Made by a program: the position numbers and the translations under genes
DNA from: Firmicutes bacterium HGW-Firmicutes-15
Lineage (GTDB): Bacteria > Bacillota > Syntrophomonadia > Syntrophomonadales > Syntrophomonadaceae
Assembly: GCA_002840245.1 (NCBI GenBank)
Contig: PHAA01000004.1
Location: forward strand, 62,001 to 126,000
Length of the DNA: 64,000 nt
Direction of reading: 5' to 3'
The notes under the pieces: generated by a model
The model's input: the letters and a program-made list of their open reading frames with translations, nothing else
Databases searched by the model: none
Told to the model about the DNA's origin: nothing
Part shown: positions 1,196 through 38,128 of the stretch, piece by piece
Numbering within the stretch: position 1 is the first letter of the stretch
Layout of the letters: each line of letters opens with the position of its first letter

Positions 1196-2218
1196 ATGAG
1201 TATTATGAATTCAAATGAGAATAACATTCATTCCCAGGTTGGATATTTGAATAATATAGAGGGTATTAAACCATTTTCGGATAGAATCAAGGAAATAGGT
1301 TTTAACTCCCTTAAGAGTAATCCTACTATCACTACCTTGCAGGTCAATGTAGGTAAGGTGTGCAATTTAATGTGCAAGCACTGTCATGTTGAAGCCGGTC
1401 CACATAGAACCGAATCCATGACGAAGGATACCATGTCACAATGTCTTAGTATTCTCATGAAGAACCCCATTCCCATCCTTGATATTACCGGCGGAGCCCC
1501 GGAATTAAATCCGAACTTATCTTGGTTTATTAAAGAAGCAATCAAAGTAGGCTGCCATGTAATAGTCAGGACAAATCTAACGGTTTTAAGACAATACGAA
1601 TACACTAACATGCCTGAATTTTATGCTGATAATAATGTTGAGCTAGTTTCTTCTCTGCCTTATTACAGTGAAAAAGATACCGATCGACAACGTGGAGAAG
1701 GTGTATTTTTGAATTCTATTGCGGTACTATCGAGGCTGAATGAACTTGGATATGGTCAGAGGGATGGATCTTTAAGACTAAATCTAGTTTTTAACCCTGG
1801 AGGTGCTTTTTTACCACCATCTCAAGATACAATAGAAGGTGATTTCCGCAGGATATTATCGAAGCAATACGGAATAAGTTTTAATAATTTATACACCATT
1901 ACTAACGTTCCAGTAGGAAGGTTTCTAACCTTTCTATATGATTCGAAAAATTTGCATAGATATATGGAACGTTTAACCAGCAGCTTTAATTCATCAACAA
2001 TAAGTAGAGTTATGTGTCGTGACCAAATTTCTGTGGGATGGGATGGGCAGCTCTATGATTGTGATTTTAACCAGATGCTGGGATTGAATTGCACACCTGC
2101 TCATATTAGTGAGTTTAGTTTAGAGTCATTTAAGGAACGGGAAATCCTTTTAGGCAATCACTGCTACGCCTGCACAGCAGGTGCAGGCTCAAGCTGTGGG
2201 GGGGTAACATCAAGCTAG
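1196..2218 (+). CDS. arsS: Radical SAM protein ArsS (arsenosugar biosynthesis)
   Basis: This 340-residue radical SAM enzyme has the Cx3Cx2C cluster motif as CNLMCKHC near residue 57, followed by a TGGAPEL segment (SAM/GGE-like region) and a cysteine-rich C-terminus, CYACTAGAGSSCGG, diagnostic of the ArsS/rSAM_SeCys family. Some family members carry selenocysteine in this tail; here all positions are Cys. ArsS is proposed to join the adenosyl-derived ribose to dimethylarsenite made by ArsM, giving arsenosugar precursors. The gene starts three bases after the AhpD-like stop, with a weak ribosome site, suggesting translational coupling. Confidence 0.85.
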   Translation: MSIMNSNENNIHSQVGYLNNIEGIKPFSDRIKEIGFNSLKSNPTITTLQVNVGKVCNLMCKHCHVEAGPHRTESMTKDTMSQCLSILMKNPIPILDITGGAPELNPNLSWFIKEAIKVGCHVIVRTNLTVLRQYEYTNMPEFYADNNVELVSSLPYYSEKDTDRQRGEGVFLNSIAVLSRLNELGYGQRDGSLRLNLVFNPGGAFLPPSQDTIEGDFRRILSKQYGISFNNLYTITNVPVGRFLTFLYDSKNLHRYMERLTSSFNSSTISRVMCRDQISVGWDGQLYDCDFNQMLGLNCTPAHISEFSLESFKEREILLGNHCYACTAGAGSSCGGVTSS

Positions 2219-4967: not shown

Positions 4968-5681
4968 ATGAAGAACATCTTTCGCGGATATTGGGGAAAA
5001 ATATTGGTGGTGCTAATTCTAGCCTGTCTATATTTATTTGTTCCCTTCATTAAGGTTAATATAAATCAGGCCTTTTTTATTTTAAGTAATGTAGATGTTG
5101 ATCTGGCCCGGGGCTATATTTTGGGGTTTGGAATCTGGGCACCTATCGTATCTTTTCTGTTGATGGTTTTTCAATCTGTGGCAGCACCGCTGCCCGCTTT
5201 CATCATAACTTTTGCCAACGCCGGTCTGTTTGGGTGGATTTATGGAGCGATTCTTTCCTGGTCAAGTGCCATGGTAGGAGCCTTGGTCTGTTTTTACATT
5301 GCCAGGTACCTGGGAAGAGACGTAGTAGAGAAATTCACTTCTAACAAATCCCTAAACGGTATTGACACCTTCTTCAAGTATTACGGCAAATACGCTATCC
5401 TTATTGCCAGACTGCTGCCTTTCATTTCGTTTGATATTGTAAGTTACGCTGCTGGGTTGACTTCCATGGGCTTCTGGGAGTTTTTTATAGCTACTGGAAT
5501 CGGACAACTGCCTGCGACTATCATTTATTCCTACATAGGCGGAATGCTAACCGGCGGAGTAAAAACTATGGTAACGGGACTGTTAATTCTCTTTGCTCTG
5601 AGTGCATTGATTGTACTCTTGAAAAATATATGGGAGGACAAGAAAAAAAAGGGGGTAATTGTTTTTGAAGAAGGGATTTAG
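4968..5681 (+). CDS. TVP38/TMEM64 membrane protein, copy 3
   Basis: A 237-residue TVP38/TMEM64 protein that aligns almost end to end with copy 1 at 3003: both have the N-terminal helix, a SNVDVD/SMVDVD segment, FGIWAPIVSFLLM, PLPAFIITFANAGLFGW and a C-terminal SY.GGMLTGG..TMV segment. They are probably a duplication. GAGGTG at 4955-4960 supports ATG 4968; the upstream in-frame stretch is not membrane-like. The 3' end overlaps the start of the rhodanese gene, so the two are translationally coupled and may work together at the membrane. Confidence 0.85.
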   Translation: MKNIFRGYWGKILVVLILACLYLFVPFIKVNINQAFFILSNVDVDLARGYILGFGIWAPIVSFLLMVFQSVAAPLPAFIITFANAGLFGWIYGAILSWSSAMVGALVCFYIARYLGRDVVEKFTSNKSLNGIDTFFKYYGKYAILIARLLPFISFDIVSYAAGLTSMGFWEFFIATGIGQLPATIIYSYIGGMLTGGVKTMVTGLLILFALSALIVLLKNIWEDKKKKGVIVFEEGI

Positions 5682-6624
5682 GAAACGTCTCCTTAGCATT
5701 GTGCTGTGCCTAGCATTGCTTCTGGGAGTCGTGGGTTGCCAAAGTCAGCCAAAATCTTCAGGCATACCAGAAACAAAAGAATTCGACATCTCGGTCTATC
5801 AGAATAAAGATTATCTGATAACGGCAGAAAAACTTAAAGCCATGTTGGGCAGCGAAAATCTAGTCCTGGTGGACTGCAACAATCCCAGCATTTACGCGTC
5901 AGAACATATCCCCGGGGCTATCGGAGTTGGTTTCCATGCCTTTGCGGATAAGATTGGTAAACCTGGGGATCCGGGCTGGGGTATCATTAAACAAAAGGAA
6001 GATTTGCAGAAAACCCTTGAATCATTAGGGATAGACAACCAAAAGACGGTGGTCTTTTACTCCGATGTGTTTAAGGGGCCAGGTGCAGATGGAAGGGCCG
6101 TTTGGCAGTTGAAAATTGCCGGAATGAATAACGTGAAAATGCTAGTAGGAGGCTTAAGTTACTGGAAGAGTCTGGGGTACCCAATAACCGCCGAAGTTGC
6201 TCAACCTAAACCGGTAGCGGGAGTTGTGTTAAAAGATTATGACCAAAGTTACATAGCTACAAAAGATTACGTCTTCAATAATTTAGGGAAGCAGGTTATG
6301 CTGGATGTTCGGACCGAAGGAGAATTCCAGGGCTCTCAGAAGTCTGGTGAACCGCGGGGAGGTCACATTCAAGGAGCGATCAACATGCTCTGGCTGGATC
6401 TGCTCAATAAGGACGGTACCCCTAAGTCGCCTGAGGAGATAACAACGCTAATGGCTGCAAAGGGAGTAAAGCCGACTGATGAATTCATAGTCTACTGAAC
6501 CATGGGCATAAGATCTGGATATGCATCCATGATCCTCAGAGCCGTGGGCTTTGATAAAGTTAGAAATTACGAGGGTTCAATCTACGAATGGGGTGGAGAT
6601 TCCAATATGCCGATGGCAAAATAG
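5665..6624 (+). CDS. Tandem-rhodanese lipoprotein with selenocysteine (TGA) at the catalytic position
   Basis: Read through TGA 6496-6498, the frame gives 319 residues to TAG 6622. A signal peptide ends in a lipobox with lipid cysteine at residue 25 (VVGC), placing the protein outside the membrane. Domain 1 (about 50-165) has LVLVDCNNPSIYASEHIPGA but serine at its catalytic position (VVFYSD). Domain 2 (about 195-315) has MLDVRTEGEFQG, then FIVY-U-TMGIRSGYAS, where family members have VYC..G.RS; the downstream GFDKVRNYEGSIYEWGG is a normal rhodanese ending. The TGA therefore replaces the catalytic cysteine exactly, at codon 278. TTG 5665 follows GGGGG. Rhodanese selenoproteins are known, but this one needs protein evidence. 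Confidence 0.82.
6512..6534 (+). promoter_or_regulatory. SECIS-like hairpin downstream of the in-frame TGA
   Basis: Starting 13 bases after the TGA, GATCTGGAT (6512-6520) pairs with ATCCA-T-GATC (6525-6534): nine base pairs with one bulged T on the 3' side and a four-base loop ATGC. Bacterial SECIS elements are small hairpins at this distance inside the coding sequence and bind SelB. The bulge is on the opposite arm from the Escherichia coli fdhF element, so the fit is by position and stability rather than by exact consensus. Confidence 0.55.
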
Positions 6625-6626
6625 TT

Positions 6627-6675
6627 ATAAAGAAGAACGCGCCTCGAATTAAGTTCGAGGCGCGTTCTTCTTTAT
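6627..6675. terminator. Strong 22-bp hairpin, probable terminator of the rhodanese transcript
   Basis: A perfect inverted repeat pairs 6627-6648 with 6654-6675 around a 5-base loop (TTAAG), three bases after the selenoprotein stop at 6624. The 3' arm ends in TTCTTCTTTAT, a modest U-rich tail. Its location right after the extended stop, not after the TGA, supports the gene really ending at 6624. A second small hairpin (6675-6693) abuts it. Confidence 0.7.
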
Positions 6676-9619: not shown

Positions 9620-10123
9620 TCACTTGTAAATAACGATTTCTTCTAAAGGTTTTCTTATCTTCTTAAAAGCCCTTTCTTGGGAATATCCTAAAGGCGTAAA
9701 GGCAATGGGTTCCAAAGTTTCGTCCAGTTCCAATATATCTTTGGCAGCTTTCAAATCAAATCCAGCAATCCAGCATGTTCCAAGATCCAGAGCGGTGGCT
9801 GCCAATATTATATGATCCATCACGATAGCAGCATCAACATCAGCGTAGTTTTTTTTGTCATTGCGAACCCAACATTTTTCTGGTATTGAGCAGACACCAA
9901 TAATAAGTGGAGCTTCGATAAACCAATCCTTGTTATATATTTTTAGTAATTCTTTTTTTCTTCCTATGGTATCAACGACGATGACTCTGTATTGCTGCTT
10001 GTTTGCGGCAGTGGGAGCTAGTCTTGCAGCTTCAAGTATACGGTGTAGTTTATCAGGTTCGACCGGGTCAGGTTTATAAGAACGTGCACTGTGCCTTTTC
10101 TCAACAACTTCGAAATATTCCAT
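9620..10123 (-). CDS. Nitroreductase-family FMN oxidoreductase
   Basis: A 167-residue minus-strand nitroreductase-family protein with KRHSARSYKPDPV (FMN phosphate contact), RLAPTAANKQQYRVIVVD near residue 35 and ATALDLGTCWIAGFDLKAAKDIL near 110, then AFTPLGYSQE. It is shorter than the protein at 7410 and only distantly related to it. GGGAGG precedes the start. It is transcribed divergently from metY, sharing the regulatory region 10124-10441; a link to sulfur metabolism is not shown. Confidence 0.85.
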   Translation of the reverse strand: MEYFEVVEKRHSARSYKPDPVEPDKLHRILEAARLAPTAANKQQYRVIVVDTIGRKKELLKIYNKDWFIEAPLIIGVCSIPEKCWVRNDKKNYADVDAAIVMDHIILAATALDLGTCWIAGFDLKAAKDILELDETLEPIAFTPLGYSQERAFKKIRKPLEEIVIYK

Positions 10124-35947: not shown

Positions 35948-35998
35948 GGGTAAGACAAAAAACATAGTGAAGGAGGAATTTAGAATCAATACTATCAA

Positions 35999-36144
35999 GC
36001 GCCTGACCCGGTATAACCGTTAGTTAAAGGCCGGGTGACGAGGAGGGGGTTTATCGAATGATTCGGCGGGTGCCCCCCGGTTGTCACGACCGTTAGTATA
36101 GCTACAAAGGCGAATAGTAATATGCGTTAGTAAAGGGCTATACA
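35999..36144 (+). ncRNA. glmS ribozyme/riboswitch
   Basis: The leader between glmM and glmS carries the glmS ribozyme core: AGCGCC at the cleavage site (cut between A35998 and G35999), GACGAGGAGGGGGTTTATCG near 36038-36057, ATTCGGCGGGTGCC at 36061-36074, and GACCGTTAGTATAGC with a later GGGCTATA closing the P3/P4 part. It self-cleaves when glucosamine-6-phosphate binds, lowering glmS mRNA. Confidence 0.93.
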
Positions 36145-36223
36145 TGTGGATGAATAATATAATAATTGGCTAATAATCCTTATTGGAAAATAGGAATGCA
36201 AATATTGAACCGGAGGTTTTCAT

Positions 36224-38128
36224 ATGTGTGGAATTATGGGTTATATAGGCAACGGTAATGCCGTGCCGGTAATAATAGATGGTCTTAGTAAACTGGAATA
36301 CCGAGGATACGATTCTGCGGGTATTGCGATATATAAACCTTCCCAGGAGAAGAAACAGCAGCCTCTGCTGGTGGACCAAAAAGGGGAACCAGAAACCAGC
36401 GGCTCAGCAATAATCGAATATGAGGATGCCTACATCGAGATCATTAAGAAAAAAGGCCGCCTCACTGAAATGATCGAGGTACTGGGGGAATTTCCGACCA
36501 CTAGTCTCGCCATTGGGCATACTCGCTGGGCTACCCATGGCGTACCCAGCGATGCTAACGCTCACCCCCACACCGATTGCAGTGGGCGAATTGCCCTGGT
36601 GCACAATGGGATTATAGAAAACTACGCGGGCTTACGTAAACAACTCATATTAGAGGGTCATGATTTTGTTTCTGAAACCGATACCGAAGTAATGGTTCAT
36701 CTAATTGAGAAGTATTATAATGGCTCGCTGGAGGAAGCCGTCCGTAAAGCCTTAACTTATGTGCATGGTTCCTTTGCCATAGTAGTAATATGTGCCGATG
36801 AACCCGACAAAATAATTGCCGCCAAAAAAGCCAGCCCTATGATAGTAGGACTGGGTGAAGGTGAAACTTTTCTGGCCTCAGACATTCCAGCGATTATAGG
36901 GAAAACTAAAAGGGTATACATTATTGAGGATGACGAGTTTGTAGTAATAAAAAGTGATTCCGTGGTAATTACCGACTTTGAAGGTAACCCGATTGCCAAA
37001 GAGATATTTGAAGTCACCTGGGATGTGGAAGCAGCAGAAAAAGGCGGCTATGAACATTTTATGCTTAAAGAAATTCATGAGCAGCCCACCGCCTTGAGGG
37101 AGACACTGCGGGGAAATATAAAAAATAATATGATTGACTTGAGCGACCTGGGGATAGACGATATTTTTACCGATGTAGAAAAGATATATATTGTAGCTTG
37201 CGGAACTGCCTATCATGCTGGGTTGGTAGGCCGCACTGTCCTGGAAAAACTGGCCCGCATTTCGGTGGAGACGGACATAGCCTCGGAATTCCGTTATAGG
37301 GATATTCTTTGGAATCCCCATTCAGTAATGATGGTTATTAGCCAGTCAGGGGAGACCGCCGATACTCTGGCAGTTTTGCGCGAAGCCAAACGCAATGGCA
37401 TTAAAGTGCTGGCAGTTACGAATGTAGTGGGGAGCTCTGTGGCTCGCGAAGCTGACCGAGTCATCTACACCCATGCCGGTCCAGAAATAGCCGTCGCTTC
37501 CACCAAGGCATACTCCACCCAACTGCTTGTAATGTATCTCCTGGGGCTTCACCTGGCCAGGGTCAGAGGAACCTGCAGTCCGCAAGAGTTGGCCGAACTA
37601 GCCGAGGAAATTACGCATATTGATGAACTGGTGGAGCAGGTTTTGACTGAAGAGGACAAAATTAAGAAACTAGCTGAAAAATACCAGGGTGTTCAGGATA
37701 CCTTTTTCCTGGGGAGAGGTCTGGATTATGCTGTAGCCATGGAAGGAGCCCTAAAGTTAAAGGAAATATCCTATATCCATGCCGAGGCTTATGCCGCCGG
37801 AGAGTTAAAACATGGTCCCCTGGCCCTTATTGATGAGGGCGTACCAGTGCTGGCCCTGATTACTCAAGATAACCTGGTCGAAAAGACCATGTCCAATATC
37901 AAAGAAGTAAAAGCCCGTGGAGCCGTAGTAGTGGCGATATGTAAGGAAAACCTGCAAGAAGCTTGTCAGGAATGCGATGAGCAGATACTCTTGCCAAATG
38001 TAAACCCTATCCTGGCCCCGATGGTATCAGTAGTACCTCTGCAAATATTCTCCTATTATATGGCCATATTCAGAGGAGCCGATGTCGATAAACCGCGCAA
38101 TTTGGCGAAAAGCGTAACAGTGGAATAG
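36224..38128 (+). CDS. glmS: Glutamine-fructose-6-phosphate aminotransferase GlmS
   Basis: A 634-residue GlmS: MCGIMGYIG with catalytic Cys2, YRGYDSAGIA, GHTRWATHG, then SIS domains with ACGTAYHAGL and SQSGETADTLA, and the C-terminal DKPRNLAKSVTVE. The protein is about 25 residues longer than common GlmS because of an insertion around residues 45-75, in the glutaminase domain. The 3' end is the Tn7 attachment region: TnsD-type proteins bind its last coding bases, and the element begins 24 bases past the stop codon. Confidence 0.95.
   Translation: MCGIMGYIGNGNAVPVIIDGLSKLEYRGYDSAGIAIYKPSQEKKQQPLLVDQKGEPETSGSAIIEYEDAYIEIIKKKGRLTEMIEVLGEFPTTSLAIGHTRWATHGVPSDANAHPHTDCSGRIALVHNGIIENYAGLRKQLILEGHDFVSETDTEVMVHLIEKYYNGSLEEAVRKALTYVHGSFAIVVICADEPDKIIAAKKASPMIVGLGEGETFLASDIPAIIGKTKRVYIIEDDEFVVIKSDSVVITDFEGNPIAKEIFEVTWDVEAAEKGGYEHFMLKEIHEQPTALRETLRGNIKNNMIDLSDLGIDDIFTDVEKIYIVACGTAYHAGLVGRTVLEKLARISVETDIASEFRYRDILWNPHSVMMVISQSGETADTLAVLREAKRNGIKVLAVTNVVGSSVAREADRVIYTHAGPEIAVASTKAYSTQLLVMYLLGLHLARVRGTCSPQELAELAEEITHIDELVEQVLTEEDKIKKLAEKYQGVQDTFFLGRGLDYAVAMEGALKLKEISYIHAEAYAAGELKHGPLALIDEGVPVLALITQDNLVEKTMSNIKEVKARGAVVVAICKENLQEACQECDEQILLPNVNPILAPMVSVVPLQIFSYYMAIFRGADVDKPRNLAKSVTVE

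Follow-up and report, generated by a model that had tools for sequence, protein, structure and literature searches.

A TGA codon at the catalytic position of a rhodanese gene

In the 64,000-nucleotide stretch of the Firmicutes bacterium HGW-Firmicutes-15 genome analyzed here (the window), a plus-strand rhodanese open reading frame stops at TGA 6496–6498, and the same frame then stays open for 41 more codons to TAG 6622–6624. Does the TGA end the protein, or is it read as selenocysteine (Sec), and what might the full-length protein do? An initial annotation, made from the letters alone, had reported the in-frame TGA, the readthrough and the rhodanese C-terminus beyond it, and had warned that standard gene callers would truncate the gene; all of this is borne out, including a standard ORF call that ends at the TGA. 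When the codon is read as a residue, the gene (5665–6624, starting at TTG 5665 or TTG 5659) encodes a product of 319 residues in which a lipoprotein signal precedes two rhodanese domains. Alignment and conservation place the putative Sec, residue 278, at the catalytic position. It aligns with the catalytic cysteine of the Azotobacter rhodanese 1e0c, and comparison with Cys-containing tandem rhodaneses, a check suggested in the initial annotation, finds Cys at this codon in 18/18 distant homologues. The proposed lipoprotein nature likewise holds: a lipobox cysteine and predicted lipid anchor, Cys25 (VVGC, 5737–5739, plus strand), is present in 15/15 aligned Sec proteins. The stop codon is followed by a 20-bp inverted repeat (6628–6674, no strand assigned) that resembles a terminator. 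The ‘strong terminator’ of the initial annotation thus survives as a stem, but a terminator-like T-run was called on the minus strand only.

The TGA is retained among relatives. We found 16 further loci in Bacillota and Actinomycetota, whose proteins share 64–76% identity, and the catalytic codon is TGA at 17/17 distinct loci, window included. The TGA-to-stop spacing is exactly 41 residues at all 16 intact loci; the remaining locus, L072, is frameshifted upstream in its assembly yet keeps the TGA and the residues around it. Homologues ending before this position had been named as evidence that would count against Sec; none of the 17 loci ends there. Searches at the family, class and phylum levels yielded three other genomes with 70–75% identical proteins, each with one internal TGA, and all other full-length homologues from these searches were at most 40% identical and had no internal stop. 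Among 84,980 species genomes scanned, 15 loci came up, two of which had already been found. No member of the Sec clade (17 loci) has Cys at the catalytic codon, and Cys homologues occur only at identities of 40% or less. In a phylogenetic tree, the 15 Sec proteins included fall on one side of a single branch with support of 100/99.

Among the carriers are Pelotomaculum, Sporotomaculum, Desulfoscipio, Tepidibacter, one Clostridium MAG, Syntrophomonadaceae and three members of the Actinomycetota. Two Sec-rhodanese loci (L058 and L071), each with a VTT gene upstream, are present in Pelotomaculum sp. PtaB.Bin104, and genome G171 encodes a three-domain rhodanese lipoprotein near its Sec rhodanese (L052:3792–5156, minus strand). 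Horizontal transfer of the window’s gene appears likely, because in the tree its protein clusters with those of Desulfotomaculaceae and Desulfallaceae, and the searches turned up no close homologue among the organism’s genus-mates.

The genome could supply the means of decoding. SelA, SelB, SelD and tRNA-Sec, for which the initial annotation had advised a search, are all present; selA, selB and selC (tRNA-Sec) adjoin one another on one contig, and the tRNA-Sec, which scores 73 bits, is likewise identified by ARAGORN (anticodon TCA). Presence of SelB does not discriminate Sec from Cys carriers, because SelB also occurs in genomes with Cys homologues only. The SelD of this genome (L033, G000 C79:30910–31833, minus strand) likewise has a TGA in frame (motif AAGUAAK) and is probably itself a selenoprotein. 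In the window, TGA terminates 9 of 56 ORFs (greedy list, rhodanese ORF included), and a general reassignment of the codon can be rejected because TGA ends other genes there. One minus-strand ORF (9620–10123) ends in TGA and is followed by a further 32-codon open stretch. Readthrough of the UGA by another route, either a general code change or near-cognate insertion of Trp or Cys, is very improbable: nothing specific favors it, and against it stand the complete Sec machinery, the use of TGA to end other window genes and the Cys found at this codon in all 18 aligned distant homologues, Sec being the usual replacement for Cys.

A conserved RNA element directly 3′ of the TGA

Synonymous codon conservation among the Sec genes is concentrated immediately after the TGA. 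Of 315 segments of 14 codons, the top twelve all start 0–11 codons downstream of it, and at the peak the fraction of identical synonymous codons is 0.83, compared with 0.33 expected (the median excess is 0.045). In the Cys homologues, a more divergent set than the Sec genes for which the synonymous comparison was likewise made within each gene, the same place is unremarkable, ranking 124–249 of 305 segments. On this comparative evidence, the conserved stretch directly 3′ of the TGA is a recoding element. A true stop, whether from a recent nonsense mutation, a pseudogene, an error in sequencing or a shortened protein that still functions, agrees with the standard ORF call but has a negligible probability given the presence of this TGA at 17 loci across two phyla, the open and protein-conserved 41-codon extension at 16/16 intact loci, the RNA-level constraint after the TGA and the loss of the catalytic residue that it would entail; chance, pseudogene, truncation and sequencing error are ruled out by the conservation of the TGA together with the synonymous-conservation peak. 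Gene callers for which TGA always means a stop would cut this enzyme just before its catalytic residue, and its function would be missed.

An RNAalifold consensus contains two hairpins. Hairpin 1 (6512–6534, plus strand; 9 bp with a bulged U) is the SECIS candidate of the initial annotation, which had correctly placed it 13 nucleotides after the TGA. Hairpin 2 (6536–6554, plus strand; 7 bp in the consensus) had been missed but is equally conserved, and its NGUNG loop is found in nearly all sequences. Pairing is maintained in 97% and 100% of alignment cells for hairpins 1 and 2, respectively. The sole two-sided change is one A-U to U-A exchange in two sequences; the region varies so little that true covariation is scarce, and with only two doubly changed cells covariation is weak as proof of the hairpins. 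Thermodynamic stability was also rejected as proof of a SECIS, as hairpin 1 on its own shows no exceptional stability (z ≈ −0.6 over 50 nucleotides) and single-sequence folding is not significant. Hairpin 1 lies at a SECIS-like distance from the UGA, but its loop lacks a G in the opening positions. In hairpin 2 such a G is present, but the loop lies ~45 nucleotides from the UGA, farther than is usual for bacterial SECIS elements. An Rfam scan of the window gave no SECIS-type match. We suggest that the RNA element helping Sec insertion spans about codons +5 to +18 after the UGA. These comparisons strongly favor Sec as the catalytic residue, because the sel genes are present, the TGA is kept, no homologue ends there and the RNA signal is conserved.

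Fold, genomic partners and proposed chemistry

Both domains of the protein match PF00581, and the catalytic residue lies in the second. An AlphaFold model (mean pLDDT 91.5) resembles thiosulfate sulfurtransferases over its whole length, with TM-scores to target of 0.81–0.88 for the best ten matches. The active-site loop, U278-T-M-G-I-R283, has the CX4R length, and R283 is invariant. Sulfurtransferases have a CX4R loop, whereas Cdc25/Acr2-type arsenate reductases of the same fold use CX5R. Sec278 is the catalytic candidate. The initial annotation had also observed that the first domain lacks its Cys; that domain does appear inactive, but a special loss can be set aside, as an inactive first domain is the ordinary state among tandem rhodaneses.

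Immediately upstream lies a gene for a VTT/DedA (TVP38-like) membrane protein (4968–5681, plus strand; PF09335), which extends into the beginning of the rhodanese gene. A VTT/DedA gene occupies this position at 16/16 testable Sec loci, in keeping with the coupling to TVP38 proteins proposed earlier. Several Cys homologues also adjoin a VTT gene, but on the downstream side. Recurrent neighbors at many Bacillota loci are glycosyltransferases, a radical SAM protein, a C_GCAxxG_C_C protein and an LPG-synthase-like membrane protein; in Tepidibacter and the actinomycetes, little other than the VTT–rhodanese pair was recognized. The surroundings had been described as an arsenic region, and in the window ArsM, ArsS, ArsR and arsenosugar-type glycosyltransferase genes do lie near the Sec rhodanese, but ArsM, ArsS and ArsR were not recognized at most other Sec loci. 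The ArsS of the window (1196–2218, plus strand) has Cys in its terminal SSCGG motif; the family is named ‘(seleno)protein’, which indicates that Sec forms exist. Farther along the window, a glmS ribozyme (35987–36153, plus strand; 99 bits, over the gathering score) sits just upstream of an ORF at 36224–38128.

We consider it highly probable that the product is a tandem rhodanese anchored to the membrane outside the cytoplasm, with Sec278 at UGA 6496–6498, most likely a sulfurtransferase and a putative partner of the VTT/DedA protein. In such a mechanism, the SelA/SelB/SelD/tRNA-Sec machinery would insert Sec278 at the UGA with the help of the downstream RNA element, and the protein, judging from its lipobox, would be exported as a lipoprotein. 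The selenolate could then take sulfane sulfur, or selenium, from thiosulfate, polysulfide or a similar donor, hold the atom on Sec within the UX4R loop and deliver it to an acceptor such as a thiol. The rhodanese may act jointly with the membrane protein encoded just upstream, a function suggested by the observed association of the two genes. Transfer of sulfane sulfur or selenium in this manner, perhaps aided by Cys71, is the chemistry that we moderately favor, as the fold and the loop point to it.

Cys71 (D-C-N; codon 5875–5877, plus strand) is present in 14/15 Sec proteins and 0/18 Cys-type homologues, and a partnership between Cys71 and Sec278 is possible. This co-occurrence also fits a different enzyme, in which Sec278 and Cys71 carry out thiol-disulfide or peroxide chemistry on a rhodanese fold. 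That Cys71 sits in the first domain and that one Sec protein does without it make such a Sec-Cys redox function quite unlikely. Detoxification of arsenic, selenite or tellurite by reductase-like chemistry, instead of sulfur transfer, is an unlikely function as well, although it deserves somewhat more weight. The arsenic-related genes near the Sec rhodanese speak for it; the CX4R loop, which has the sulfurtransferase rather than the Cdc25/Acr2 length, and the failure to recognize arsenic genes proper at most other Sec loci speak against it. Also in its favor are a weak similarity to the selenite/tellurite-operon protein ExtH, although this misses the cut-off for that family, and a cited link between DedA proteins and selenite resistance (PMC10127716).

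Sulfur or selenium transfer remains our preferred function. A more specific but unlikely proposal is that the DedA/VTT protein and the surface Sec rhodanese form a dedicated two-gene module. Such a module would transfer sulfane sulfur or selenium at the face of the membrane, perhaps to a lipid-linked substrate that the VTT protein moves, with an obligate requirement for selenium and a two-hairpin recoding signal. Fusions of rhodanese and DedA domains are known, and their link has been called unclear (PMC10127716).

Comparison with known rhodaneses

No NCBIfam model reaches its cut-off on the Sec rhodanese. The 3-mercaptopyruvate sulfurtransferase model SseA (NF008557) scores 88 bits against a curated cut-off of 250. 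ExtH (NF040901; 44.3 bits against 200) and TsoB (NF045694; 27.9 bits against 805) are also rhodanese-domain proteins of selenium-related contexts, but these weak matches differ in architecture and the Sec rhodanese belongs to neither family. The structurally solved thiosulfate sulfurtransferases 3aax (Rv3117), 1uar and 1e0c share the whole-length fold and the catalytic residue in the second domain. By contrast, they are ~30% identical and are Cys enzymes that lack a lipoprotein signal. Cys lipoprotein tandem rhodaneses of the same phylum (for example L015, L016, L019 and L039) have a similar length, a lipobox, two domains and a CTxGIRS loop. These proteins nevertheless use Cys instead of Sec, are at most 40% identical to the Sec proteins, show no RNA constraint after the catalytic codon and have D-[A/V]-R or similar in place of the D-C-N at Cys71.

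Rhodanese selenoproteins as such were already known, as the initial annotation recognized. Sec was predicted in COG2897/cd01449 rhodaneses of the Sargasso Sea (three sequences) and GOS metagenomes, and these reports of 2005–2008 describe Sec tandem rhodaneses from ocean metagenomes (PMC1088965, PMC2398784); a 2026 review distinguishes five Sec rhodanese forms, of which ‘form 4’ is UxxG (PMC13188914). As far as the available portions of these sources go, the marine proteins resemble ours in being rhodanese-related with an SseA/TST-repeat assignment, and UxxG fits U-T-M-G (PMC1088965, PMC2398784, PMC13188914). Those same portions, with the proteins compared by description, mention no lipoprotein nature, DedA/VTT partner or clade of anaerobic Bacillota and Actinomycetota. 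Relative to these known forms, again by description, what is apparently new is a Sec rhodanese that is a lipoprotein, apparently always contains Sec, is paired with DedA and has the extra Cys71. Our analysis adds a well-supported selenoprotein clade, so far Sec-only and predicted to be extracytoplasmic, in anaerobic syntrophs and clostridia, and this clade connects the chemistry of Sec with a membrane protein of the DedA/VTT type.
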